Below are positions 10,993-61,364 of a stretch of DNA of 64,000 bases, piece after piece. Numbering within the stretch: the first letter of the stretch is position 1; each line of letters begins with the position of its first letter. The DNA comes from Halapricum salinum (GTDB lineage: Archaea > Halobacteriota > Halobacteria > Halobacteriales > Haloarculaceae), in the NCBI RefSeq assembly GCF_004799665.1, contig NZ_CP031310.1, forward strand, positions 674,887-738,886, read 5' to 3'. Made by a program: the position numbers and the translations under genes. Under the pieces are notes generated by a model that did not search any database, had not been told where the DNA came from, and worked only from the letters and a program-made list of their open reading frames with translations.

Positions 10993-11052
10993 ATACTGGC
11001 ACGTCAGCGGCGAGAACCCAAAGACGATCAGGATGTCACTCGCGATCCGCAC

Positions 11053-42057: not shown

Positions 42058-42252
42058 TTAGTTTCGAACGACGTTGGTCGCGCGCGGACCCTTGGGGGCC
42101 TGCTCGATGTCGAATTCGATGTCCTGTCCTTCCTCGAGGTCCGGTCCGCCAACGTCTTCCATGTGGAAGAAAACGTCCTCGTCCGCGTCCTCAGTCTCGA
42201 TGAAACCGTAACCGCCTGTGTCGTTGAAGAAATCAACCGTTCCGTTTGCCAT
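42058..42252 (-). CDS. cspA: Cold-shock domain protein
   Basis: A 64-residue single cold-shock domain: MANGTVDFFNDTGGYGFIETED contains the RNP1-like GYGFIE, then EDVFFHMEDVGG (RNP2 FFH) and ...PRATNVVR. It binds single-stranded nucleic acids as an RNA chaperone. A TATA-like box 25-34 bases before the ATG points to a leaderless or very short leader transcript. It is unrelated to its glycan neighbours. Confidence 0.95.
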   Translation of the reverse strand: MANGTVDFFNDTGGYGFIETEDADEDVFFHMEDVGGPDLEEGQDIEFDIEQAPKGPRATNVVRN

Positions 42253-42276
42253 TGCCTTTGTTTGGAAGGGCGAGGG

Positions 42277-42286
42277 GTATGTAAGG
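42277..42286 (-). promoter_or_regulatory. TATA-like promoter of cspA
   Basis: On the minus strand CCTTACATAC lies 25-34 bases upstream of the cspA start at 42252. Confidence 0.4.
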
Positions 42287-42323
42287 CTTCTGAGGGTCGC
42301 GTTACCACGACCACCGATCCCCG

Positions 42324-43088
42324 CTACTCGGCGAGCCACGTCCGCAGGTACGCGAGACTCCGGTAGACGTTGCCGACGGTCGCGACTGCGGCGGCAGCGG
42401 GCGTCGGCCCCAGCCGCACGGGAAGCAGCGTCTCGACGACGCGCTCCGAAAACGGGGTGTCCCACTTGCGGTCGTACTGCAGGTCCGCGGGGCCGAACCG
42501 AGCCATCTTCCGCCAGTAGTCCCGCAGCGAGGTGGCGTACCAGTGCGTGACGGTCGCGTCCGGCTCGTAGAGGACGCGATAGCCCGCCTCCAGCGCACGG
42601 CGCGCGAGGTCGGTCTCCTCGTGGCCCCACAGGAACTGCTCGTCGAAGCCGCCGACGGTCTCGAACACTTCGCGACGGAAGGCCATGTTACAGCCCGTCA
42701 GGCCGGTCGACCCGCGGCGGAACGACGCCGGGACGGCCCGGACGTAGTGGCGGCGGTCGCCCTGATCGTAGCTCCCGACGAACCGCGAGATGACGCCGTC
42801 CCCGGGGTGGATGACGCGCCCGGCGACGATGGGGTTGGCCTCCAGGGCGTCGACCATTGCGGGAAGGTAGTCGGCGTGGGGGATCGCGTCGTCGTCGAGA
42901 AAGACCAGCCGATCCGAGCGAGCGGCCTCGATCCCGGCGTTTCGGGCGACCGAGATCCCCTTGTCGTCCCGGAGGATCACCTCGTAGTCGTCGAACGCCT
43001 GGGCTTCCAGAATGCGCAGGCAGTCGATCTGCTCGCGTGGCGCGAGCGAGCAGACGATCACGCTGACTGCGGGTGCGTCGTCGGTCAC
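42324..43088 (-). CDS. GT2-family glycosyltransferase
   Basis: About 254 residues from a likely GTG start at 43088 (TDDAPAVSVIVCS). The GT-A fold is clear: VSVIVCSLAPREQID, RNAGIEAARSDRLVFLDDDAIPHADYL (DxD-type metal site), GCNMAFRREVFETVGGFDEQFLWGHEETDLARRAL (ED motif). The family member probably adds a hexose or rhamnose. An open frame continues upstream to 43301, overlapping the divergent YdjM-like gene, with a TATAT sequence near 43150 that suits the shorter start. The N-terminus is uncertain. Confidence 0.75.
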   Translation of the reverse strand: MTDDAPAVSVIVCSLAPREQIDCLRILEAQAFDDYEVILRDDKGISVARNAGIEAARSDRLVFLDDDAIPHADYLPAMVDALEANPIVAGRVIHPGDGVISRFVGSYDQGDRRHYVRAVPASFRRGSTGLTGCNMAFRREVFETVGGFDEQFLWGHEETDLARRALEAGYRVLYEPDATVTHWYATSLRDYWRKMARFGPADLQYDRKWDTPFSERVVETLLPVRLGPTPAAAAVATVGNVYRSLAYLRTWLAE

Positions 43089-43211
43089 GGTCGACCTCGT
43101 GTCGTCACAGACGTCGTCGGCATGTCGATACAGGGCCTTCGTCGCCAGCGCATATAATGGCAGGCCCCAGCGGTCACGACGCTTATCCTCGCTGGACGCC
43201 TCCGAGAGGCT

Positions 43212-43769
43212 ATGTGGCCCTGGGGACACCTCGCTTTGGGATACGTGCTGTACTCGCTCGGTCGCCGAGCGGGCCGACGAGCACCCCCTACGGACCAGCA
43301 AACCCTCGCACTCGCGCTCGGGACCCAGCTTCCGGATCTAATCGACAAGCCGCTGGCGTGGTGGGTCCCGATCCTTCCGGGCGGGCGAACGCTCGGACAC
43401 TCGCTGGTGTTCGCGGTCCCGCTCGTGCTCGTCCTCGGCTGGGTCGCCCACCGACGTGGCCGACGCTCCTGGGTCGTCGCCTTCGCCGTCGGCTACGCGA
43501 GTCACCTCGCTGGCGACCTGTATCTGGCCGTCGCGTGGGGCAACTACTACGAACTGAACATCCTCCTGTGGCCGCTGACGCCGACCGTGCTCTACGACGC
43601 CCAGCCCAGCGTCCTGTGGCACCTCTCGTCGATCACGCTGACCCCGCTGTTCCTCGCGGAACTGGCACTGGGCGCGTTCGTCGTCGCGCTCTGGCTGGCC
43701 GACGGTCGTCCCGGAATCGGGTCTGTTCGGCGGCTGCTCCGTCGGGCGGGCCCCACTCCGAGCAAGTGA
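43212..43769 (+). CDS. YdjM-like membrane-bound metal-dependent hydrolase
   Basis: A 185-residue protein of the LexA-regulated/YdjM-like metal-dependent hydrolase family (PF04307). It has conserved WPWGHLALGYV, GTQLPDLIDKPLAW, GRTLGHSLVF and GYASHLAGD with the His/Asp metal ligands, and four hydrophobic segments. Probable phospholipid- or lipid-linked substrate at the membrane. Not an obvious part of the glycan pathway. Confidence 0.85.
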   Translation: MWPWGHLALGYVLYSLGRRAGRRAPPTDQQTLALALGTQLPDLIDKPLAWWVPILPGGRTLGHSLVFAVPLVLVLGWVAHRRGRRSWVVAFAVGYASHLAGDLYLAVAWGNYYELNILLWPLTPTVLYDAQPSVLWHLSSITLTPLFLAELALGAFVVALWLADGRPGIGSVRRLLRRAGPTPSK

Positions 43770-43816
43770 CGACGGGGATTGGCAGTTTTTTGTACCGGTG
43801 GCGTCTCCCCACAGGT

Positions 43817-44800
43817 ATGGATATTCTCGTCACCGGCGGTGCGGGCTTCATCGGCGGCCACCTCGCCGAGCGGTTCGTCCGCGACGGCCACGACGTCGTC
43901 GTGCTCGACAACTTCGACCCTTACTACGATCGGCGGCTGAAAGAGCACAACGTCAAGGTGGCCCGCGAGGCCACCGAAGCGAGCGAGGGCACCTACGAAC
44001 TCGTCGAGGGCGACGTCCGCGACGAGAATCTGGTCGCCGACCTCGTCGGCGGTGTGGACTACGTCTACCACCAGGCCGCCCAGGCGGGCGTCCGGGCGAA
44101 CATCGAACCCCGGAAGTACCACACCGTCAACGTCGACGGGACGCTGAACGTCCTCGACGCGGCGCGTGAGACCGACCTCGAACGGATCGTCTTCGCCAGT
44201 TCCTCCTCGGTCTACGGCAAAGCCCGCTATCTCCCCTACGACGAGGCGCACGTGACCGAGCCCGTCAGCCCCTACGGTGCCTCGAAACTCGCCGCCGAGC
44301 GCTACGGCCTCGTCTACGGCGACCGCTACGACGTCCCGTTCGTCTCGCTGCGGTATTTTACCGTGTACGGCCCCCGGATGCGCCCGAACATGGCCATCTC
44401 GAACTTCGTCTCCCGCTGTACGAACGGCGATCCCCCAGAAATCTACGGCGACGGCTCGAAGACGCGGGACTTCACCTACATCGAGGACGTGCTGGACGCC
44501 AACCGGACGCTCCTGCACGAAGACGCCGCCGACGGGGAGATCCTGAACATCGGGAGCACCGACACCATCTCGATCGAGCGACTGGCCGAAACGGTGCGAG
44601 ACGAGCTCGCGCCCGACCTCGATATCGTCTACAGCGAGGGCTACGATATCGACGCCGAGCACACCCACGCCGACATCTCGAAGGCCAGCGAGCTGCTCGG
44701 CTACGAACCCTCTCGAACGATCGAGGAGGGCGTCCGGGAGTTCATCGCATGGTATCGCGACAATCGCGCGTGGTACGAGCCACTGGTTCGGGGCGAGTAG
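43817..44800 (+). CDS. NAD-dependent nucleotide-sugar epimerase
   Basis: A 327-residue short-chain-dehydrogenase of the UDP-sugar epimerase type. NAD loop MDILVTGGAGFIGGHLAERF, catalytic SSSSVYGKARYLPYDE with PYGASKLAAERYGLVY (Tyr-x-x-x-Lys), and LRYFTVYGPRMRPNMAISNFV. The RPNMA segment resembles UDP-glucuronate 4-epimerases, which fits a uronic-acid-containing polysaccharide and the nearby PL9-like lyases. A TATA-like run lies just before it. Confidence 0.88.
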   Translation: MDILVTGGAGFIGGHLAERFVRDGHDVVVLDNFDPYYDRRLKEHNVKVAREATEASEGTYELVEGDVRDENLVADLVGGVDYVYHQAAQAGVRANIEPRKYHTVNVDGTLNVLDAARETDLERIVFASSSSVYGKARYLPYDEAHVTEPVSPYGASKLAAERYGLVYGDRYDVPFVSLRYFTVYGPRMRPNMAISNFVSRCTNGDPPEIYGDGSKTRDFTYIEDVLDANRTLLHEDAADGEILNIGSTDTISIERLAETVRDELAPDLDIVYSEGYDIDAEHTHADISKASELLGYEPSRTIEEGVREFIAWYRDNRAWYEPLVRGE

Positions 44801-44873: not shown

Positions 44874-45977
44874 ATGTCTTCGACGCTCTCACTCGACGTT
44901 CACGCCAGCGCGGCGACGCTGCCGCCGGCCTGGAACGACGTCGTCGCCCGCTCGCGCCTCGGAACGGTCTTCGCCCGAACGGAGTGGCTCCGCGCGGTCG
45001 AGCGCGGCACCGGCGCCGAACCCAGACACGTCGCCGTCTCGCGGGACGGGACTCTCGTCGGGATCTGCCCTAACTTTGTCTCCGAGCTCGACCTCCCGGT
45101 CTCGCTGCCCGCGGGGCTCAGACCGCGCGAACTCGTCTCGGTGTCGCCCGGCTTCGGCGGTCCGATCGTCACGGGCGACTACGACGCGGTGTTCGACCGG
45201 CTGCTGGAGGGCGTTCGAGCGGCCGCGACCGGCGGCGTCTGGGACCACCGGATCCGGGCGCTCGATGGCGACGTGAGCCAGTATTCCGAGCAGCTGGACG
45301 CTCGTGGCTACGTCCCGTCGGTGCCGACCTGCCAGCTTGTCGTCGATCTGACCCAGCCACTGGACGCCATTTTCGAGTCCTGGGACAAAGACCGACGCCG
45401 GACCGCCCGCAAGGCCCGCGAGGCCGGCATGTCCGTCAGCCAGCCCGACCCGACCTCTGGTGAGCGCGAGGCGTTCTACGACGCCTACGCGGCGATGATC
45501 GACCGCGTCGACGGCGTCCGCTTCGCGCCCGCGTTCTTCGACGCGCTGTTCGAAGCGCTCGGCGATCGGATCGTCCTCTTCAGGGCAGACCTCGACGGCG
45601 AGGCCGTGGGCTGGCACTGCTATCTCCGGGACGACGAGCAGGACGACCTCCATCACTTCTTCTCGGGACTGCGCGAGGAGCACTTCGGCCACCACCCATC
45701 CAGTCGGCTCCACGAGGCCGCCATGGAGTGGGGCCGCGAGCAGGGCTTTTCGACGTACAACTTCGGCGAGTCAAACGCCGACGTCACCGAAGGGGGCTTT
45801 CGCTACAAGTCCCAGTACGGCGGTGAGGTGCTGCCGGTACTGACGTTCGAGCGGGGGCTCGCACGCGGGCGCTGGGCGGTCTACCGCGCCGCGCGGCGGG
45901 CCTATCGAACGCTCGGCGCCCGCTCGGAACGCCGTGTTCGGCTGGCCGGACGGACGCCGGACCCGGGCGAGACATGA
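44874..45977 (+). CDS. FemAB-like aminoacyl/acyl transferase
   Basis: A 367-residue protein with two GNAT-like folds of the FemAB type. Visible: PAWNDVVARSRLGTVFARTEWLRAV, QLVVDLTQPLDAIFESWDKDRRRTARKAREAGM (typical linker KDRRR...KA), and the C-terminal HHPSSRLHEAAMEWGREQGFSTYNFGES...GFRYKSQYGG. Peptidoglycan homologues use aminoacyl-tRNA donors, while exopolysaccharide-locus members are uncharacterised. Overlaps the next gene by four bases (ATGA). A second FemAB-like gene lies at 54.7 kb. Confidence 0.85.
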   Translation: MSSTLSLDVHASAATLPPAWNDVVARSRLGTVFARTEWLRAVERGTGAEPRHVAVSRDGTLVGICPNFVSELDLPVSLPAGLRPRELVSVSPGFGGPIVTGDYDAVFDRLLEGVRAAATGGVWDHRIRALDGDVSQYSEQLDARGYVPSVPTCQLVVDLTQPLDAIFESWDKDRRRTARKAREAGMSVSQPDPTSGEREAFYDAYAAMIDRVDGVRFAPAFFDALFEALGDRIVLFRADLDGEAVGWHCYLRDDEQDDLHHFFSGLREEHFGHHPSSRLHEAAMEWGREQGFSTYNFGESNADVTEGGFRYKSQYGGEVLPVLTFERGLARGRWAVYRAARRAYRTLGARSERRVRLAGRTPDPGET

Positions 45978-46981
45978 CCGGCTGGCGCTGGCGAGCGGGA
46001 CGAGCGGTCCACCATCGCCTGCCGGCCGCAGGTGGAAGCAGTCGTTCGTACCAGCCACCGACGGGGGCGCCGATTCCCGCCAGCGACGCCCGCGCGGCGA
46101 CCGCCCCGCCGCCGATCGACCCCCAGCCCGCCGCCACGAATCCGATCCTGACCGCGAGTGATCTGGGAACCGATATCGAGTTCGTCGCCGACCCGTTCCT
46201 CTATCTCGACGACGACTGGCATCTGTTCGTCGAGGTCTACCGGCCCGCCGTCGACCCGCCCGCAGCCATCGCGCACCTCCAGAGCAGCGATCGCGGGCGC
46301 TCGTGGACCTACTCGGGCGTCGTCCTCGACCCCGGCGTCCACCTGGCGTTCCCCTTCGTCTTCGCCTGGGACGGCGAGCGCTACATGCTCCCGGACCCGT
46401 GGTCCGAGCGGCCGGGCGTCCCCGCGGATTTCACACTGTATCGGGCCAGCGACTTTCCGACGGCGTGGGAGCCGGTCGCGACGCCGATCTCACCCGAGCA
46501 GGAGTTGCACGATTGCGTCCTCCTCCGACACGAAGGACGCTGGTGGGCGTTCGCGGGCGAGGGTGGCGAGCTCTACGCCTTCTACGCCGACACGCTCGAA
46601 ACGGACGACTGGACGCCCCACGCGGACAATCCTGTCGTGACGAATCGCCCCGAGGCTGTCCGGCCTGCGGGACGACCGATCGCTCGCGAAGACGGCTTCG
46701 TCCTCCTCTTTCAGGACTGCGCCCGGCGCTACGGCGAGCGCGTCTGGGCCTACGAGATCACCGAGCTGTCGCCGTCGACCTACCGCGACGAGCGCGTCGG
46801 AAGCGGCCCAGTGGTCGGGCCTGCAGGCGGAATCGGCTGGAACTCGGGGCGGATGCACCACGTCGACGCCTGGCTGTTCGAGGATCGCTGGCTCTGTGCC
46901 GTCGACGGGAACGTCGGCCTGGGTAAGCCGCTCTTCGGCGATCACTGGGCGATCGGACTCTACGAGCAGCGGCTGGCGTGA
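45974..46981 (+). CDS. GINT1_N-like beta-propeller protein
   Basis: A 335-residue protein. The conserved FVADPFLYLDDDWHLFVEVYRP, VVLDPGVHLAFPFVFAWDGERYMLPD and HEGRWWAFAGEGGELYAFYADTL resemble the N-terminal domain of plant glucosamine inositolphosphorylceramide transferase 1 (GINT1) and GH43-like propellers. In glycan loci this fold often sits beside transferases. No glycosyltransferase domain is attached. It is translationally coupled to the FemAB-like gene. Function unknown: sugar-binding or hydrolytic. Confidence 0.75.
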   Translation: MTGWRWRAGRAVHHRLPAAGGSSRSYQPPTGAPIPASDARAATAPPPIDPQPAATNPILTASDLGTDIEFVADPFLYLDDDWHLFVEVYRPAVDPPAAIAHLQSSDRGRSWTYSGVVLDPGVHLAFPFVFAWDGERYMLPDPWSERPGVPADFTLYRASDFPTAWEPVATPISPEQELHDCVLLRHEGRWWAFAGEGGELYAFYADTLETDDWTPHADNPVVTNRPEAVRPAGRPIAREDGFVLLFQDCARRYGERVWAYEITELSPSTYRDERVGSGPVVGPAGGIGWNSGRMHHVDAWLFEDRWLCAVDGNVGLGKPLFGDHWAIGLYEQRLA

Positions 46982-52965: not shown

Positions 52966-54084
52966 TCAGCGATCAGCCTTTCCCGTGAGATCAGCGATCA
53001 GCGACTCGTACTCCCCGAGGACGCGGTCGCTGGCGAAGTTCTCGGCTCGCTCGCGAAGCAGATCCGGATCCGGCGGCTCGTCGAGGCTCGCAGCCAGCGC
53101 GTCGGCCAGCGCGGCGGCATCACCTACTGGAACGAGCCGCCCCCACTCCTCCTCGCCCAGAATCTCCCGGGGGCCGCTCGGACAGTCCGTCGAGACGACG
53201 GGACAGCCACACGCGAGTGCCTCGACCAGCACCGTCGGCAGCCCCTCGTAGGTCGAGGACAGGGCGAACACCGACGCCCGGGCCATGTACGGCGCGGGGT
53301 CGACGTACCCCGGGAAGGCGACGGCGTCTCCGAGGCCGCGCTCGCTGACCAGCCGCTCGACGCGCTCGCGTTCGTCTCCGGTGCCCGCGAGGACGAGTCT
53401 CGTCTCCGGCCGCCGGTCGTGCAGGCGGTCGAACGCAGCCAGCAGGGTCGGCAGGTCCTTCTCGGGCGCGAAGCGGCCGACCCACAGCACCACGTCGAGA
53501 TCCGGATCGTCGAGCCACGGAACGATCACATCTCCGTCGGCTCGCTGGCGAATCGTCTCGACTGGCACGGGATTGGGGAGGACGACGACCTGATCGGGAT
53601 CGACGCGGGTCCGCTCGCGAATGCTCTCGGCGACCCCCTCGGAGACGGCGATCACCCGATCCGCGAGGGGATAGATCCAGCGAGCGAGGTGGTTGGTCAC
53701 GTCGCGTTTGCCCCCCATCTCCATCCCGACAGTGGTGTGCTCGACGATCGCGACGGGTGTTCCGCTGGCGGAGAGTCGCGCCGCGAGCGTCGCGACGACG
53801 TTGGCGTAAGTCATCGCCGAGAAGAGGATCCGGGGGCGCTCGCGCCGGAGATACCGGGCGAGCGAGGGGATACTGGCGACGATCCCCAGGCCCGGAATCG
53901 CTGGCGTCGCTAGCTCGACTACCGCGACGCTGTCGTCGACTTCCGGGCGCAACTGCCCGCCGGGGTAGGAGACGAGCAGGGCGACATCGTGACCGCGCTC
54001 GGCCAGCCCGTTCGCGAGGTCGACGGTCACGCGCTGGGCTCCGCCGGGTGTCAACTCCGGCAGGTAGATCGCGACGCCGGCCAT
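52966..54084 (-). CDS. GT4-family glycosyltransferase in the FemAB operon
   Basis: A 372-residue GT-B enzyme. MAGVAIYLPELTPGGAQRVTVDLANGL, VLWVGRFAPEKDLPTLLAAF and the donor motif SSTYEGLPTVLVEALACGCPVVSTDCPSGPREIL. It is the third gene of the FemAB/C-Ala/GT4 operon: its ATG shares one base with the C-Ala gene stop (TGATG). It probably builds the glycan to which the two upstream proteins add something. Confidence 0.9.
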   Translation of the reverse strand: MAGVAIYLPELTPGGAQRVTVDLANGLAERGHDVALLVSYPGGQLRPEVDDSVAVVELATPAIPGLGIVASIPSLARYLRRERPRILFSAMTYANVVATLAARLSASGTPVAIVEHTTVGMEMGGKRDVTNHLARWIYPLADRVIAVSEGVAESIRERTRVDPDQVVVLPNPVPVETIRQRADGDVIVPWLDDPDLDVVLWVGRFAPEKDLPTLLAAFDRLHDRRPETRLVLAGTGDERERVERLVSERGLGDAVAFPGYVDPAPYMARASVFALSSTYEGLPTVLVEALACGCPVVSTDCPSGPREILGEEEWGRLVPVGDAAALADALAASLDEPPDPDLLRERAENFASDRVLGEYESLIADLTGKADR

Positions 54085-54746
54085 CAGACCGCGAACCCGG
54101 CCTCAGCGCCGAGTCGATCCCGGACCGTTTCGGCCGCGTCGGCCAGTTGCTCGGCCTCGCCGCCGCCGGTCGCGAACTCCGCGCCGCCGCCCGCACCGCC
54201 GCCGGCAGCCTGGGCGACCTCACGGGCGATCTCGTCGGCCTGCTGGTCGAGGTCCGAGCCGACCGCGACCGCGAGCGAGCCGTCACCGCTGGCAGTGACG
54301 ATGGTCACGCCGAGGCTGTCGGTGAGCGCCGCTTTGGCCAGCGCCTCGGCGTCTTCGAGCACACCGTCCGAGAGGTCGATCACGGTGACGTGTGGCTCGT
54401 CGGTCGCCGGCGGCTCCGAGCGACGGGCCGCCCACCAGCGAGCGACCCACGCCGAGCGGTTTTTGTCGAGTGTGCTGGTTAGCTCTCGGACCTTCGTATC
54501 GAGCGATTCGACGCGATCAGGGACCTCCTCGGGCCGGGCGTTCAGCAGCGTCGCGGCCCGTTCGAGTGCACTCGGATCGGTCGTCGCAACCGATTCGGGC
54601 GTGTGGCCCTCCTGCGGGGCGGCCCACTGCTGGCTGAGCGTGAGGCTCTCCCTGATCGTCTGTTCACGCCGTCGATAGTAGACGACGGCGGCGACGAGCG
54701 CGAGCGCGAGTACGAGCGTCTGGAATCTGTTTCGGGACATGGTCAT
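54084..54746 (-). CDS. Membrane-anchored alanyl-tRNA synthetase C-terminal (C-Ala/DHHA1) domain protein
   Basis: A 220-residue protein. One transmembrane helix (about 8-24) is followed by YYRRRE, so the rest should be cytosolic. Residues about 60-97 (LERAATLLNARPEEVPDRVE...) match the linker helix that precedes DHHA1 in alanyl-tRNA synthetase. DHHA1 covers about 118-212, with the glycine-rich AGGGAGGGAEFATGGG (181-196). No catalytic, editing or DHH domain. In AlaRS this region binds the tRNA elbow. The start at 54746 overlaps the FemAB stop by four bases (ATGA). A role in tRNA delivery is inference. Confidence 0.8.
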   Translation of the reverse strand: MTMSRNRFQTLVLALALVAAVVYYRRREQTIRESLTLSQQWAAPQEGHTPESVATTDPSALERAATLLNARPEEVPDRVESLDTKVRELTSTLDKNRSAWVARWWAARRSEPPATDEPHVTVIDLSDGVLEDAEALAKAALTDSLGVTIVTASGDGSLAVAVGSDLDQQADEIAREVAQAAGGGAGGGAEFATGGGEAEQLADAAETVRDRLGAEAGFAV

Positions 54747-55777
54747 TCGTGGATGAAGCGCTTGAGTTGCGGGCCGACGACGGGGTTGGTGACGACGGGG
54801 CTGAGTCGCTCTGCGATGGCTGCGGCGCGACCGTATCCCTCCAGCGAGGCGCGATTGGCACGATGGGGCGGCGTGACGAAACTCGACAGCGGCGAGGCCG
54901 TGCCACCGAACTGGCGCTTGAAGCCGTGGACGCCCGTTCCGGGGCGCGAGCGGCCGAAGTCGACGACGTCGATCCCGGTCGCGCAGGCGTCCTCGATGGC
55001 CGCGGCGTACAGCCGGTAGTTGGGATGATACTCCCAGGCGTCTTCTCGAGAGGCGTTCGACCAGATCATCCGGGTGTCGTCGAAGTCGAGCATGAGGATC
55101 CCGCCGATCGCGTCGCCGTCGTGTTCGACGACGAAGACCGCCAGGTCGTCGCCCAGTTCGCCCGCGAGGTCGACGAAGAAGTCCTCGGGAAACTGCGGGC
55201 TGCCGAGCCGACGCATCGTCGCCAGGTAGAGCGGATAGTACTCGGTCACCGTGGCGGGCCTGACGGTCACGCCGGACTCGACGGCCGAGCGGACACAGCG
55301 GCGGGCCTCGCCGCTGAACGAGCGCTCGCGCACGGCGTCGAACGCCCGGTCGGTGTCGAGACGGATGACTTCGCCCGTGCGGACGGCTCCGTAGCCTGCC
55401 GGATTGTAGCCCGAGACACCGGTCCAGCCGGCGTCTTTGACGATTCGCGCGCCGAGTCGGCCGAGGCCGTTCGCGAGGTCTCGCAGGACGGCAACGGTAT
55501 CGACACCCTCGCCGAGCAGGGGAAAGCCGTACTCACAGAAGGGGTTGACCACTGTTCGGCCGCCGATGCCGGGGATCGCAAAGCCGGGGACGACGCCCAC
55601 TGGTTCGTCCTCGCCGCGTTCGGTGACGACCCGGAAGGCCGGTTCGTAGCCGAAGGCGTCGCCGACAGCCTGGTGCCACTCCCAGGTGTGAAAGACCGTC
55701 GCCGCCGGGTGGTCGGCGACGAACTCGCGCCAGCGGTCGCGGTCCTCGGCCGCGGCGGGCCGGCTCTCGTAGGTCAC
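54743..55777 (-). CDS. FemAB-like aminoacyl/acyl transferase coupled to the C-Ala protein
   Basis: A 344-residue GNAT-fold protein of the FemAB-related type. Start taken as GTG at 55777 (TYESRPAAAEDRDRWREFVADHP); a TTG at 55795 also exists. Features: ATVFHTWEWHQAVGDAFGYEP, VVPGFAIPGIGGRTVVNPFCEYGFPL, EARRCVRSAVESGVTVRP, VFVVEHDGDAIGGILM and VDFGRSRPGTGVHGFKRQFGG. FemA, FemB and MurM relatives transfer amino acids from aminoacyl-tRNA to lipid-linked sugars. It is the first gene of the three-gene operon. Confidence 0.85.
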   Translation of the reverse strand: MTYESRPAAAEDRDRWREFVADHPAATVFHTWEWHQAVGDAFGYEPAFRVVTERGEDEPVGVVPGFAIPGIGGRTVVNPFCEYGFPLLGEGVDTVAVLRDLANGLGRLGARIVKDAGWTGVSGYNPAGYGAVRTGEVIRLDTDRAFDAVRERSFSGEARRCVRSAVESGVTVRPATVTEYYPLYLATMRRLGSPQFPEDFFVDLAGELGDDLAVFVVEHDGDAIGGILMLDFDDTRMIWSNASREDAWEYHPNYRLYAAAIEDACATGIDVVDFGRSRPGTGVHGFKRQFGGTASPLSSFVTPPHRANRASLEGYGRAAAIAERLSPVVTNPVVGPQLKRFIHE

Positions 55778-56092
55778 GGCCGCTCCCCCGCGCAATGGCC
55801 CCGTTGCATACAGGCAGGATTCTCAGCAGACACACATAATCGTTGTCGTGGGTGGGTCGGCCGTTCGAATGGATTGTGGAAGTGGTGGGTAGTCTGGGCT
55901 ATCGAACCGTCGTTTCGACGAACGGTGTCGCGATCCGTGCTGCATAGAGGGCGCCAATGAAGAATGGGGCGACGCCCGAGTCGGACTATTCGATTTGGGA
56001 GATACGGCCACCGTTCCGAATACTCACCGATGTGCCCTTGATGCTGGGACTCCTGACTGCGAACTCGAAAAGTGAGTCGAGGACCTGCGATC
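55778..56092. other. AT-richer gap, no recognisable gene
   Basis: This gap of 315 bases between the FemAB operon and the serine hydrolase contains short open stretches on both strands without family features. Base composition drops compared with the left neighbour. It may contain remnants of a decayed gene. It probably includes the FemAB operon promoter at its left end. Confidence 0.5.
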
Positions 56093-57223
56093 CTACTGTC
56101 CGGGTCGCTCTACCTTCGAAATCGAACGCAGGGTTTGGAAGAGGAACATCATGCTCTTTCGCATATACGACCACTGGTTGAAGGTCCCGATCAGATAGAC
56201 GTCGATCGTGGGATTGTACACCATGAAGGCACTGCTCGCACCCAACCCGCCCCAGCAGTGGAAGCGTTTGAGAAACGGCAACGGGCGGATGCGGACGATG
56301 CCGTAGCCGTAATCGATTCCCTGCCATAGTTTGTTCCACTGCTGCATCTTCTGGAGCGTCTCCTCGGATACGAGCTCCCCCTCGACCAGGGCCCGATGGA
56401 ACCGGAATAGTTCTTCTGCGGTGTTCACCGTCTGCCCGCCGGCGTAGAACGCGCTCAACGAGGGCACGTCGTCCACATCGATTTTCTTCTCGTCGATGTA
56501 AAACGGGGCCGTGGGAAGCTCATTTTCGACAGCAGGGTCAGAGAACGGCGGTAAGTACGAATGCTCCATCTCCAACGGATCAAAAAGGAACTCCGCCAGA
56601 GCCTCGTGATACGGTTGCTCAGTTACGTTTTCGATGAGCAATCCGAGCAGGTTGTACCCGAACTCCGAATAGTAGCAGTCCTCCCCGGGCGAGAAATGCG
56701 ATTCCAGATTGTGTTTTGCCCACTCGATCGTCTCTTCCGGTTCCCATATCCGGTCGGGTTCCGCCATCATCTCGTCGAATAGCGTCTTCCCCTCGGGAGA
56801 TTCCTCCAATCGCGTGTTGAAGAACATCTTTCCGCCTTCGGGAAGTGAATGGGGCAGTCCGGACGTGTGACCGAGGAGATGACGGATGCGGATATCGTCT
56901 GTGTAGTCTGTGCCGTTGATCGTGTGAAGACCGTCCAGAAGTGACTCGGACAGGTACTCCGATATCGGGTCATCAAAGCTCAGTTGCTCGTCCTCGGCGA
57001 GCATAGCCACAATCGTCGAAGTAAATGTCTTGCCAATGCTGGCTGCGTAGTATGGTTGCTCTGGATCGGCTTCGATACCCGCCGTCTGGCCGGTGGCAAG
57101 GTTCCAGTGGAGATCACGACTGTCGGAATGGACCAACAGGTACGCGGAGTGGAGCTCGGAGTTGTCTTCGACGGCAGATTGTAACCTGGATTCCAGACGG
57201 GATTTAGCTTCTTGACATTCCAT
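56093..57223 (-). CDS. Beta-lactamase-family serine hydrolase
   Basis: A 376-residue class-C-like beta-lactamase/DD-peptidase-fold protein. The nucleophile motif SIGK is at 62-65; the second motif reads YSEFGYN (usually YxN with Asn third, here Glu, so activity could be altered); HLLGHTSGLP and HCWGG near the C-terminus are present. No signal peptide, so cytosolic. Coding DNA is AT-richer and codon use less GC-biased than its neighbours, suggesting recent transfer. It begins 12 bases after the AbrB-like gene. Confidence 0.82.
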   Translation of the reverse strand: MECQEAKSRLESRLQSAVEDNSELHSAYLLVHSDSRDLHWNLATGQTAGIEADPEQPYYAASIGKTFTSTIVAMLAEDEQLSFDDPISEYLSESLLDGLHTINGTDYTDDIRIRHLLGHTSGLPHSLPEGGKMFFNTRLEESPEGKTLFDEMMAEPDRIWEPEETIEWAKHNLESHFSPGEDCYYSEFGYNLLGLLIENVTEQPYHEALAEFLFDPLEMEHSYLPPFSDPAVENELPTAPFYIDEKKIDVDDVPSLSAFYAGGQTVNTAEELFRFHRALVEGELVSEETLQKMQQWNKLWQGIDYGYGIVRIRPLPFLKRFHCWGGLGASSAFMVYNPTIDVYLIGTFNQWSYMRKSMMFLFQTLRSISKVERPGQ

Positions 57224-57235
57224 AATGTTAGAATA

Positions 57236-57622
57236 TTAGATATTGAGAATATTAAACGGTGGTATGGTTCCCGACTTCGAAGAAAGTCTTCTACAAAAAC
57301 TCATACTCAGAGAGATTCTCGGGAAAGTCGGAGAATGAGTGGTTGCGTCGATAGTGGCCCGAACCGATGAGGACAAGGTGTCTCTGGGACTTTGCCGGCC
57401 CCTAGTAGAATGATCGTGTTCTACAGAACTATCGACCGGTTCGAGTTCGGAAAACGCGCCGAAATACTGCTCGACACGTTCAACAGAGAGTGTTCCGGCA
57501 TCGTCAACACGCCAACGGAGCGGGTCGCCCGCCGAAAGACTAGCCTCCTCTCTAACGGAGGTGGGAATCGTCACAGAATAGTCCTCACCGACCGTCGTTT
57601 CGACTTCGATCTCGCGAGACAT
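57236..57622 (-). CDS. AbrB-like DNA-binding protein with divergent C-terminus
   Basis: Start MSREIEVETTVGEDYSV at 57622. The first about 60 residues match the SpoVT/AbrB swapped-hairpin domain of haloarchaeal antitoxin-like proteins (IPTSVREEASLSAGDPLRWRVDDAGTLSVERVEQYFGAF). After about residue 65 (SELEPVD) the sequence diverges to a Ser/Thr-rich tail of 60-odd residues, consistent with a frameshift or fusion at the 3' end. No PIN-type toxin follows. It is probably an orphan antitoxin, possibly decaying. Confidence 0.6.
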   Translation of the reverse strand: MSREIEVETTVGEDYSVTIPTSVREEASLSAGDPLRWRVDDAGTLSVERVEQYFGAFSELEPVDSSVEHDHSTRGRQSPRDTLSSSVRATIDATTHSPTFPRISLSMSFCRRLSSKSGTIPPFNILNI

Positions 57623-59468: not shown

Positions 59469-60527
59469 ATGACTGACTTTGCTGTTACGGGGATCGGAGA
59501 AACGGCAGTTCGACGGGACGTCGAGGTGGACCTCACGTCGGTCGACGAGACGCTTTTGGATGAGGCCGGCTCGATCATGGTCGCCATCCCGGCGTTCGAC
59601 GAAGCCGCGACGATCGCTGACGTCGTCGCGTCGGCAGCGATACACGCCGACACTGTGCTGGTCGTCGACGACGGGAGCAGCGACGAGACTGGCCGCGTCG
59701 CCAGCGAAGCTGGCGCGGACGTCGTCCGCCACCCCACGAATCGTGGGTACGGCGGCGCACTGAAGACGATCTTTCGGGAGGCCGCGCGGCGAGATCCCGT
59801 ACACCTCGTCGTCATCGACGCCGACGGTCAGCACGACCCCGACGACGTCGTGTCGCTGGTGGCCGCCCGCCTCGAAACCCAGGCCGACCTCGTGATCGGG
59901 AGTCGCTACGCGAACGTCGAAAGTTCGATTCCGGCCTACCGTCGGCTCGGCCTGTGGCTGGTCAACGGTGCGACCAACCTCAGCCTCGGCACGCGCGGGG
60001 ACGCCCGAATCACCGACACGCAGAGCGGCCTGCGCGCCTACGGCCCCCGTGCCTACCACTCGCTGGCGACCGACGCGACTATCGGCGAGGGAATGAGCGC
60101 GAGCACGGACATCCTCTATCACGTCGTCCGACGGGGCTACCGTGTCGTCGAGGTTGGTGTCACCGTCCGCTATGACCTGCCCGACACCAGCACGGAAAAC
60201 CCGCTGGTCCACGGTGCCGAGCTCATGGCCAACATCGCGCGACTGACTGCCAGCGAACGGCCCGGGACAGTCGTCATCTTGCCAGTCGTAATGGCATCAC
60301 TGCTCGGGATGCCATTCGCCCGCCGATTCAAGGGCTCCCCAAGCGAGCGGACGCGGCGCTGGACCGCCACCGCACTCGTGGGTGCGCTCGTCGGCCTCTG
60401 CACGTATCTCCTGCTGACCAGGCCACGTCAGGTTCCCGAGACGGCCGCTCCCCACGAGCTACAGGTCCGCCGGGTCGTTCGTGCAGCCGATCACCTCGAA
60501 CCGGACGTCGACGTCGCCAGGAACTGA
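59469..60527 (+). CDS. DPM1/AglJ-like GT2 glycosyltransferase
   Basis: A 352-residue GT-A enzyme with a nucleotide-sugar core (about 35-230): IMVAIPAFDEAATIADVV, DTVLVVDDGSSDETG, LVVIDADGQHDPDDVVSLVAARLET, GSRYANVESSIPAYRRLG, DTQSGLRAYGPRAY. Two C-terminal hydrophobic segments (about 262-283 and 300-318) anchor it. Haloarchaeal homologues charge dolichol phosphate with the first sugar or transfer a hexose. It is followed three bases later by the deacetylase. Confidence 0.88.
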   Translation: MTDFAVTGIGETAVRRDVEVDLTSVDETLLDEAGSIMVAIPAFDEAATIADVVASAAIHADTVLVVDDGSSDETGRVASEAGADVVRHPTNRGYGGALKTIFREAARRDPVHLVVIDADGQHDPDDVVSLVAARLETQADLVIGSRYANVESSIPAYRRLGLWLVNGATNLSLGTRGDARITDTQSGLRAYGPRAYHSLATDATIGEGMSASTDILYHVVRRGYRVVEVGVTVRYDLPDTSTENPLVHGAELMANIARLTASERPGTVVILPVVMASLLGMPFARRFKGSPSERTRRWTATALVGALVGLCTYLLLTRPRQVPETAAPHELQVRRVVRAADHLEPDVDVARN

Positions 60528-60530
60528 CGA

Positions 60531-61364
60531 ATGCCGGTACTCGACTGGCCGTCACGGCAACGCGCGTATCTCACACTCGACCTGGAGTGTGACTTCGGGA
60601 CGCTGCTGGCCGCGAACGTTCCCTCACCCGGCGCCAACAGCTACGCCGCGGCCGCCCACACCGACCGCCTCGCCGACCTGCTCGATCGCCTGTCGGTTCC
60701 GCTCACCTGTTTCGTCCAGACGGACCTGCTCGACGAGCGCCCCGAGACCGTCGAAGCCCTGCAGCAAGCGGGCGTCGAGGTTCGCTTTCACCCCCACTCA
60801 CACACCCACCGCCACCGCTCGCGGACGTCGATCGAATACGAAGTCGAGACCAGCACCGAGCGCTACCACGAGTTTTTCGGCGAGGAGCCTGTCGGCTATC
60901 GCTTCCCGAACGGTGACGTTCGGCGCGAAGACTACCGGCACCTCGCCGAGGCCGGCTACGAATTCGACGCCAGCGTCTTCCCGACCTGGCGACCCGGCCA
61001 CTTCGACAACACCGACCAGCCCAGGACGCCCCAGTACCTCCCCGAGTTCGACCTCTACGAAATTCCCTTTACCGTGTATGCCTCCTGGCTCCCGATCCCG
61101 ACGGCCCTGTCGTTCTGTCGGGTGTTCGGCCGGCCCTACACCGAACTGCTGGTCCGTCGACCGCCGCCGGTCGTGGTCTTCAACATCCACATGCACGACC
61201 TGGTGACGCCCCCGACCGTTCGAAATCTGCCACGGAAGTACCGGGCCGTGTATTCGCGCAACGACCGCGGGTTCGAGATGCTGGCGTCGATCCTGAAACG
61301 GCTGCAGGAGCAGGGGTATCAGTTCGGACACGTCGACGACGTCCACGACACGTTGCGTGAGTGA
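60531..61364 (+). CDS. Polysaccharide deacetylase (NodB-like)
   Basis: A 277-residue CE4-type enzyme. The NodB-like motif 1 is LTLDLECDFG (Asp17) and the metal site HPHSHTHRH (about 88-96). It resembles exosortase-type polysaccharide-locus deacetylases (LDLECD at motif 1). It removes N-acetyl groups from amino sugars. No signal peptide, so it probably acts on a cytosolic or lipid-linked substrate. Second gene of the GT2 pair. Confidence 0.82.
   Translation: MPVLDWPSRQRAYLTLDLECDFGTLLAANVPSPGANSYAAAAHTDRLADLLDRLSVPLTCFVQTDLLDERPETVEALQQAGVEVRFHPHSHTHRHRSRTSIEYEVETSTERYHEFFGEEPVGYRFPNGDVRREDYRHLAEAGYEFDASVFPTWRPGHFDNTDQPRTPQYLPEFDLYEIPFTVYASWLPIPTALSFCRVFGRPYTELLVRRPPPVVVFNIHMHDLVTPPTVRNLPRKYRAVYSRNDRGFEMLASILKRLQEQGYQFGHVDDVHDTLRE

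Follow-up and report, generated by a model that had tools for sequence, protein, structure and literature searches.

A membrane-anchored C-Ala domain coupled to a FemAB-like enzyme in haloarchaea: a candidate tRNA-delivery subunit for the aminoacylation of surface polysaccharides

The question raised by this locus is why a haloarchaeon should couple a FemAB-like gene to a membrane-anchored protein resembling the C-terminal (C-Ala) region of alanyl-tRNA synthetase (AlaRS). The window, a stretch of 64,000 nucleotides from Halapricum salinum, contains three overlapping genes on the minus strand (Table 1), and their open reading frames and junctions were found as originally predicted, with ATGA at the first and TGATG between the C-Ala gene and the GT4 glycosyltransferase gene at the second. 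The first gene product, described in the original prediction as FemAB-like, matches PF13480 with 77 bits and a part of the PF02388 (FemAB) profile with 29.1 bits against a cut-off of 24. Its reading frame encodes 350 aa from a TTG codon, or 344 aa if the GTG at 55777 is the start.

Table 1. Positions of the features of the locus within the window
Feature	Position	Strand	Basis or remark
FemAB-like gene (Acetyltransf_6, tandem GNAT, class A)	54743..55795	-	ORF calls, profile matches, alignments, model
220-aa C-Ala/DHHA1 protein with membrane anchor, putative tRNA holder	54084..54746	-	Pfam/TIGRFAM/PDB matches, model
GT4 glycosyltransferase gene	52966..54084	-	Overlaps C-Ala gene in window; place not conserved in relatives
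FemAB stop/C-Ala start overlap, ATGA, 4 bp	54743..54746	-	Most relatives have an 8-bp ATGAATGA-type overlap
Codon of invariant Lys293 (F-K motif)	54917..54919	-	Counterpart of Lys305 (catalytic) in FemX of W. viridescens
Predicted transmembrane helix, C-Ala residues 6-24, then RRRE positive flank, N-out/C-in	54675..54731	-	Hydropathy and charge
Linker helices, C-Ala residues 58-109, matching helical subdomain of AlaRS C-Ala	54420..54575	-	Profile, model, Foldseek
Globular alpha/beta DHHA1 subdomain, residues 119-216	54099..54392	-	pLDDT >90 for most of length
GG-rich loop (GGGAGGGAEFATGGG) of C-Ala protein	54159..54203	-	Counterpart of AlaRS C-Ala GG-motif
Polysaccharide deacetylase, NodB/CE4 type, without signal peptide	60531..61364	+	Same cluster; candidate source of free amine
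GT2 glycosyltransferase	59469..60527	+	Family adjoining deacetylase in relatives

The second gene product had been described as one N-terminal helix, a positive flank and a C-Ala/DHHA1 region devoid of catalytic or editing parts, and hydropathy and profile searches agree with this description. Its PF02272 (DHHA1) match of 27.7 bits lies above the Pfam cut-off of 25.9, below which most of the scanned homologues fall. Residues 57-207 cover only positions 745-896 of the 902 in the archaeal AlaRS profile TIGR03683, the profile searches found no catalytic or editing domain of AlaRS or AlaX in the protein, and the PDB sequence match is 2zvf (C-Ala), with an E value of 1.5e-6. The DHHA1-like fold anticipated for the 220 residues was recovered in the structure model, the best Foldseek matches of which are 3wqy (AlaRS with tRNA(Ala), E 2e-8) and 2zvf (E 5e-8). 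The protein is modelled as a helical linker followed by a globular DHHA1 subdomain of the C-Ala fold, preceded by a helix at residues 3-42. Since the single N-terminal hydrophobic helix has its positive flank on the C-terminal side, the C-Ala domain should face the cytosol. A split or truncated AlaRS was ruled out, as a complete AlaRS (1247 bits) is encoded elsewhere in the genome. Compared with the C-Ala of archaeal AlaRS, the anchored protein has the same helical linker and globular DHHA1 subdomain with a GG-motif, but it stands alone at the membrane, lacks the catalytic and editing domains, and its GG-motif is altered.

The pairing of the two genes is not peculiar to the window. A phmmer search with the C-Ala protein of the window as sole query found homologues in 11 other genomes, so that the anchored gene is present in 12 of 292 Halobacteria genomes, each time adjoining the same FemAB subfamily. 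These homologues share 26-54% identity and come from about seven genera. Among related loci found with a profile of the FemAB alignment, FemAB and C-Ala are paired in all 17 that could be tested, including the five (L052, L053, L056, L057, and L058) that were left out of profile building. The two genes lie on the same strand and overlap in 16 of the 17, mostly by 8 bp, and the FemAB tree agrees with that of C-Ala (Mantel r 0.81, 0 of 5000 permutations). No anchored C-Ala gene was found in the ~135 genomes that carry only more distant FemABs (<=224 bits), nor in ~240 other Halobacteriota genomes outside Halobacteria, where the matches listed sit in AlaRS-size frames. Within Halococcus, the module is present in four genomes, Halococcus thailandensis being one species that carries it, and absent from the other six. 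FemAB and the anchored C-Ala protein therefore form a real, conserved two-gene module of some haloarchaea.

The single coupled operon of three genes originally proposed survives in part: FemAB and C-Ala are coupled across genomes, and the C-Ala gene tracks its FemAB subfamily perfectly, but conservation does not extend to the GT4 gene. As a component of the module GT4 was rejected, because glycosyltransferases of this large family lie near many FemABs and those neighbouring the module differ among loci in family, position, and strand. The constant third partner is instead a cytosolic NodB-type sugar deacetylase. Its gene immediately precedes FemAB in 14 of the 19 loci and lies at most 8 kb away in every one, and the module deacetylases have no signal peptide. 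In the window it is 4.8 kb from FemAB on the opposite strand, which weighs against the reading preferred below. The deacetylase neighbour in L046 matches Pfam Polysacc_deac_1 with 94 bits, together with DUF3473. A FemAB-like enzyme paired with a polysaccharide deacetylase in an exopolysaccharide pathway is also seen in the XrtA/PEP-CTERM systems (TIGR03019 FemAB and TIGR03006 deacetylase), although the haloarchaeal proteins score under both curated cut-offs (110 of 260 and 210 of 276 bits, respectively), and the FemAB is thus a relative and not a member of TIGR03019. The HfsH/HfsK proteins of the Caulobacter holdfast are the same deacetylase/FemAB-like pair (PMC5362036). In contrast to the haloarchaeal module, no C-Ala partner has been described for these bacterial pairs, and their donor is not known. 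The earlier proposal did not include a deacetylase.

The reading preferred here, to which a probability of roughly 0.55 is assigned, is a two-subunit aminoacyl-tRNA-dependent transferase for the synthesis of haloarchaeal surface polysaccharides, working with the deacetylase and with the C-Ala protein as tRNA holder. In the cytosol, the deacetylase would N-deacetylate an amino sugar within a lipid-linked glycan precursor, and FemAB would then move the amino acid from an aminoacyl-tRNA onto the freed amine. The stand-alone C-Ala domain on its one membrane helix may keep the tRNA, most likely gripped at the elbow, on the side of the membrane where the acceptor lies; alternatively, it may orient FemAB there. 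What the analysis itself shows is gene coupling, co-inheritance, the predicted folds, the catalytic lysine, the predicted cytosolic topology, and the deacetylase linkage, and the deacetylase explains where the acceptor amine would originate. Binding of tRNA, a tRNA donor, an amino-sugar acceptor, and an amino acid, glycine or alanine foremost, are what we infer beyond this. For the fuller statement that archaeal surface polysaccharides receive N-aminoacyl amino sugars through the joint work of FemAB, the deacetylase, and a dedicated membrane-anchored tRNA-delivery subunit cut from AlaRS, the odds are judged even.

Among candidate amino acids, glycine is the one known to be attached to an amino sugar of a haloarchaeal wall, as N-glycyl-glucosamine in Halococcus morrhuae (PMC4187196). 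Attribution of this wall glycine to the module is not supported, as the module is found in the minority of Halococcus genomes given above, and H. morrhuae is not among the named matches. The identity "alanyl" is likewise not established: C-Ala can bind non-cognate tRNAs (PMC10485164), and the haloarchaeal wall example is glycine (PMC4187196).

The first alternative is that FemAB uses aminoacyl-tRNA through a helix of its own GNAT domain, and that the C-Ala protein has lost tRNA binding and is only a dimerising membrane anchor that brings FemAB to its lipid-linked acceptor. In AlaRS, C-Ala dimerises through its helical part (the title of 2zvf names a C-terminal dimerization domain), and both transmembrane helix and linker are conserved, with R27, P76, and W100 invariant in the family alignment. 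Moreover, class B FemABs beside a deacetylase (L103 and L104) do without a C-Ala protein, so it is not obligatory for the transfer chemistry, and FemX and related enzymes act without a separate tRNA-binding subunit, which counts against a tRNA holder. The GG-motif gives evidence in both directions. In the C. elegans AlaRS, the C-Ala GG-motif contacts the tRNA D-loop (PMC10485164). It is found in all 17 family members with two positions altered in most, AlaRS having GGGGGG-P-DFAQGGG and the anchored family GGGAGG-x-x-LA(T/A)GGG; FAQGGG becomes LA(T/A)GGG in most, and the Gln is thereby replaced. The family lacks the lysine that touches G18 of the tRNA in C. elegans, and a loss of tRNA contacts might be read from this; the reading is not conclusive, as haloarchaeal AlaRS is also without this lysine. 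On the other hand, few parts of the family are as well conserved as the GG-loop (G183, G186, G187, G194, and G195 are invariant), and the linker and globular part are less acidic than in haloarchaeal AlaRS C-Ala (net charge per residue -0.09 vs -0.15, p 2e-8), features that a mere anchor would not need. This alternative is considered unlikely.

A second possibility, judged still less probable, is that FemAB works as an N-acyltransferase with an acyl-CoA donor and puts an acyl group back on the deacetylated sugar, in which case the C-Ala-type protein would be a scaffold unconnected with tRNA. PF13480 is named as a GNAT acetyltransferase family, the related HfsK has been discussed as a possible acyltransferase with donor not known (PMC5362036), and the fold is compatible with an acyl-CoA donor, since the model also matches tandem GNAT enzymes that use acetyl-CoA, at Foldseek ranks 23-50. 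The first of these has an E value of 1.3e-9, compared with 2e-15 at the top, and ranks 1-22 are all tRNA-dependent enzymes. The top match is FemX (7z6a, TM 0.65-0.68), aligned over the full length as a tandem GNAT fold, and MprF also matches. Every PDB sequence match at E<0.01 is likewise aminoacyl-tRNA-dependent. Lys293 is invariant in both alignments, and its counterpart in FemX, Lys305, is catalytic (PMC12945691). The constant presence of an AlaRS-derived partner further argues against an acyl-CoA donor, a matter on which homology gives an indirect answer.

It is very improbable that the anchored DHHA1 domain is a sensor of a nucleotide (e.g., c-di-AMP) or of tRNA charging that regulates FemAB as c-di-GMP regulates its effector HfsK in Caulobacter (PMC5362036): DHH phosphoesterases and RecJ have a DHHA1 domain too and are weaker Foldseek matches of the model, but the sequence matches AlaRS profiles only (TIGR03683 and TIGR00344) and not GdpP/NrnA-type proteins, the GG-motif is of the AlaRS type, and no DHH catalytic domain (GdpP, NrnA, or RecJ type) matches a protein that consists of transmembrane helix, linker, and DHHA1.

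The proposed tRNA-dependent module resembles the FemABX enzymes (W. viridescens FemX, S. aureus FemA/FemX, and MurM) in its tandem GNAT fold, conserved catalytic lysine, and surface polymer pathway on the cytosolic side. It differs from them in being archaeal, in the absence of peptidoglycan, in an identity of ~15%, and in its separate AlaRS-derived membrane partner. The 350-aa FemAB is also too short for the coiled-coil arm that S. aureus FemA has. By sequence, its closest PDB relatives are Sbb17 and Sba18 of streptothricin-type antibiotics. In contrast to archaeal FemAB, the acceptor of these two and of the related Orf11 is a small molecule, and we know of no C-Ala partner for any of the three. 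The acylated amine of streptothrisamine sits on gulosamine. Enzymes of the Sbb17/Sba18 type act on streptothrisamine, and Orf11 uses Gly-tRNA to acylate its amine (PMC12945691). With MprF and LysX the module would share a transfer that depends on tRNA, takes place at the membrane, and serves an acceptor on the lipid side; in those two, unlike in FemAB/C-Ala, the transferase itself bears the membrane part or a synthetase fusion and the acceptor is a phospholipid.

In the literature searched, no report of a DHHA1/C-Ala protein paired with FemAB was found, nor does such a pair appear in the papers retrieved on tRNA-dependent transferases. If true, the proposal would be, to our knowledge, the first case of tRNA-dependent glycan aminoacylation in archaea and of a FemAB-fold transferase with a separate tRNA-holding partner. 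Aminoacyl-tRNA would then feed the construction of the archaeal cell surface as it does that of bacterial peptidoglycan, through a transferase that recruited a synthetase fragment as its membrane-bound tRNA holder. We know of no gene assigned to haloarchaeal N-glycyl-glucosamine, and the module would provide a first genetic entry point to the way amino acids reach haloarchaeal wall sugars. N-glycyl-glucosamine itself has been on record since 1979 (Steber and Schleifer, cited in PMC4187196). The proposal would also suggest a role for FemAB/deacetylase pairs that lack an assigned function in exopolysaccharide loci of bacteria (XrtA, HfsK/HfsH).

A minor observation concerns the 1015-aa FemAB reading frame of L039, which was considered as a fusion and rejected: its extra length is a spurious long upstream open frame, and the FemAB part starts near 11009.

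The original prediction placed three overlapping minus-strand genes in the window, encoding a FemAB-like enzyme, a membrane-anchored partner and a GT4 glycosyltransferase, and all three were found where it located them with these identities. The first product matches PF13480 (77 bits), PF02388 (29 bits) and TIGR03019 (110 bits, the cut-off being 260), and is related to FemABX but falls outside TIGR03019. The partner (220 residues) has a single N-terminal hydrophobic helix with a positive flank on its C-terminal side. As predicted, only the C-terminal region of alanyl-tRNA synthetase (AlaRS), termed C-Ala, is represented: the protein matches positions 745-896 of TIGR03683 (archaeal AlaRS, last 150 residues) and, in a sequence search, PDB 2zvf (E 1.5e-6). 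Because the genome has a complete AlaRS at another site (1247 bits), the protein is an additional, stand-alone C-Ala, which places this domain in a new architecture.

Coordinates of the genes discussed in the window
Feature	Position	Strand
Cold-shock domain ORF	42058-42630	-
Sugar-epimerase-domain ORF	43073-44800	
Second FemAB-like gene	44874-45974	+
GINT1_N-matching gene	45974-46981	+
GT4 glycosyltransferase gene	52966-54084	-
C-Ala gene	54084-54746	-
FemAB gene	54743-55795	-
Serine hydrolase gene (beta-lactamase fold)	56093-57500	-
Deacetylase gene	60531-61364	opposite to FemAB

The FemAB and C-Ala genes are a conserved module. With the window C-Ala protein as query, a short stand-alone homologue was found in 12 of 292 Halobacteria genomes; the other matches listed were AlaRS-size or AlaX-size frames. 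FemAB of one subfamily (class A) adjoins the C-Ala gene in all 12, and the C-Ala search alone led to a FemAB neighbour in 11 of 11 genomes other than the window's. The FemAB gene of one searched genome (G113) is broken at an N in the assembly (L049 9065-9152), with its C-Ala partner intact. A FemAB profile search found some FemAB in 147 Halobacteria genomes, the 12 module genomes scoring 258-592 bits vs at most 224 bits for all others, every one of which lacks the C-Ala protein. This profile was built from module members, so independent tests weigh more. Seven loci in the named genome collection lie outside the profile set, and the C-Ala gene is present in all five with enough downstream DNA (L052, L053, L056, L057 and L058). 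As expected of a gene that tracks with FemAB, the pair is present in 17/17 testable non-redundant loci. Among the carriers known by name are Halococcus thailandensis, Halocatena pleomorpha, H. marina, Actinarchaeum halophilum, Halobacterium bonnevillei and Halalkalicoccus paucihalophilus. The two genes are same-strand and overlapping in 16 loci, mostly by 8 bp (ATGAATGA type), and divergent in one (L045). Their distance matrices are concordant (r 0.81, 0/5000 permutations).

The distribution is patchy. The module occurs in about seven genera of six families, including one of five sampled genomes of the window's own genus and 4/10 Halococcus genomes, and no member was found among about 240 Halobacteriota genomes outside Halobacteria. 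This is most simply read as the module being transferred or lost as a whole.

In an AlphaFold2 model of the C-Ala protein (10-sequence alignment, mean pLDDT 80), an N-terminal helix is followed by linker helices at 58-109 and then by a globular domain at 119-216, most of which exceeds pLDDT 90. The predicted likeness to archaeal C-Ala was upheld: the best Foldseek match is A. fulgidus AlaRS with tRNA(Ala) (3wqy, E 2e-8), followed by 2zvf (E 5e-8), other C-Ala domains and RecJ/Cdc45 DHHA1. Most homologous C-Ala proteins scanned fail to reach the Pfam DHHA1 cut-off, a possible reason for the family having escaped notice. Conservation in the stand-alone family is highest in the GG-rich loop; in C-Ala of C. 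elegans this loop touches G18 of the tRNA D-loop (PMC10485164). The lysine flanking the loop is absent, which is uninformative because the haloarchaeal AlaRS sequences compared also lack it. Two motif changes in most members (GGGGGG to GGGAGG, FAQGGG to LA(T/A)GGG) suggest altered contacts, and the strongest rival to tRNA holding is that the C-Ala protein is an anchor only. Compared over the same alignment columns, acidity of the linker and globular part is lower than in haloarchaeal AlaRS C-Ala (net charge per residue -0.09 vs -0.15, p 2e-8) and the Arg/Lys content is higher (10.5% vs 7.1%, p 1e-6), both p-values being overstated because the sequences are related; this composition favours nucleic-acid binding.

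The FemAB model (AlphaFold2, 11 sequences, mean pLDDT 71) is weak at 74-90, 111-138, 304-329 and the C-terminus. Its top Foldseek matches are FemX, streptothricin aminoacyl-tRNA-dependent synthases and FemA, then MprF, A-PGS and relatives. Each of matches 1-22 is a tRNA-dependent enzyme or carries such an annotation, and the first acyl-CoA user has E 1.3e-9, vs 2e-15 at the top of the list. All PDB matches of the sequence profile at E<0.01 are aminoacyl-tRNA-dependent, and single-sequence comparison is weak (window FemAB vs FemX, E 0.014). Invariant Lys293 aligns with Lys305 of FemX, a residue believed to be essential to the chemistry of that enzyme (PMC12945691). FemABs without a C-Ala partner match the same PDB families, so tRNA dependence may extend to FemABs more widely.

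The GT4 gene, originally proposed as a component, is not conserved beside the pair. The recurring neighbour is a NodB-type polysaccharide deacetylase with DUF3473 (210 bits to TIGR03006), which in 14/19 loci is the gene immediately upstream of FemAB, in the same orientation; four further loci have it at another place within 5 kb, and L039 has it at a distance of 7.7 kb. No signal peptide was found in the deacetylases by hydropathy, so their expected site of action is the cytosol, the compartment that contains aminoacyl-tRNA. Other recurring neighbours are GT2, an FkbM methyltransferase, ATP-grasp, a DUF2206 membrane protein and a sulfatase-like protein; the window adds a flippase-like protein, an asparagine-synthase-like protein and several glycosyltransferases. 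The neighbourhood is a surface-polysaccharide cluster. At two loci (L103, L104), FemABs of another subfamily adjoin deacetylases without a C-Ala protein; the C-Ala subunit is thus peculiar to one subfamily and not generally required.

The simplest mechanism would be one in which deacetylation is followed by tRNA-dependent aminoacylation, with C-Ala as candidate tRNA holder. The deacetylase would take the acetyl group off a lipid-linked amino sugar, and the freed amine would be aminoacylated from aminoacyl-tRNA held at the membrane by the anchored C-Ala protein. Precedents exist for these steps. The same pair of enzyme types occurs in Caulobacter holdfast, where HfsK was proposed as a possible acylator of HfsH-exposed amines, its donor being unknown (PMC5362036). 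Orf11 of the BD-12 pathway glycylates streptothrisamine using Gly-tRNA (PMC12945691), and the PDB sequences nearest to the FemAB profile, Sbb17 and Sba18, have structures solved with streptothrisamine. N-glycyl-glucosaminyl bridges are known from the wall of Halococcus morrhuae, with 100 nmol glycine per mg vs 7 in H. salifodinae (PMC4187196). H. morrhuae is missing from the module carriers in the named collection, and we do not claim that the module makes this compound in that species. No description of the FemAB and C-Ala pairing was found in the literature searched.

Several other genes were observed. The serine hydrolase gene directly upstream of the window FemAB lies in a stretch low in G+C (52-57% vs about 67%), which was probably inserted recently and may have moved the deacetylase from this position. 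In seven loci (L042, L046, L052-L056) the class A pair has, ~2.5 kb away, an extra FemAB-like gene that belongs to another subfamily (32-41 bits); this subfamily also occurs in a different conserved Halococcus locus (L095-L098). In the same seven, from Halococcus, Halocatena and relatives, a carbamoyl-phosphate-synthase-like ATP-grasp gene lies ~1.6 kb downstream of FemAB beside the FkbM methyltransferase gene; since such enzymes can ligate amino acids, it could act in a later step or provide a route that needs no tRNA. The window's second FemAB-like gene, a more distant one that scores 107 bits with the class A profile, belongs to the same surface-polysaccharide cluster as the window pair and adjoins the sugar-epimerase-domain ORF. 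A further gene matches GINT1_N, the N-terminal domain of glucosamine inositolphosphorylceramide transferase 1 (135 bits), which is unexpected in an archaeon. The cold-shock ORF was called with an unusual 128-residue N-terminal extension, and its true start may lie further downstream.
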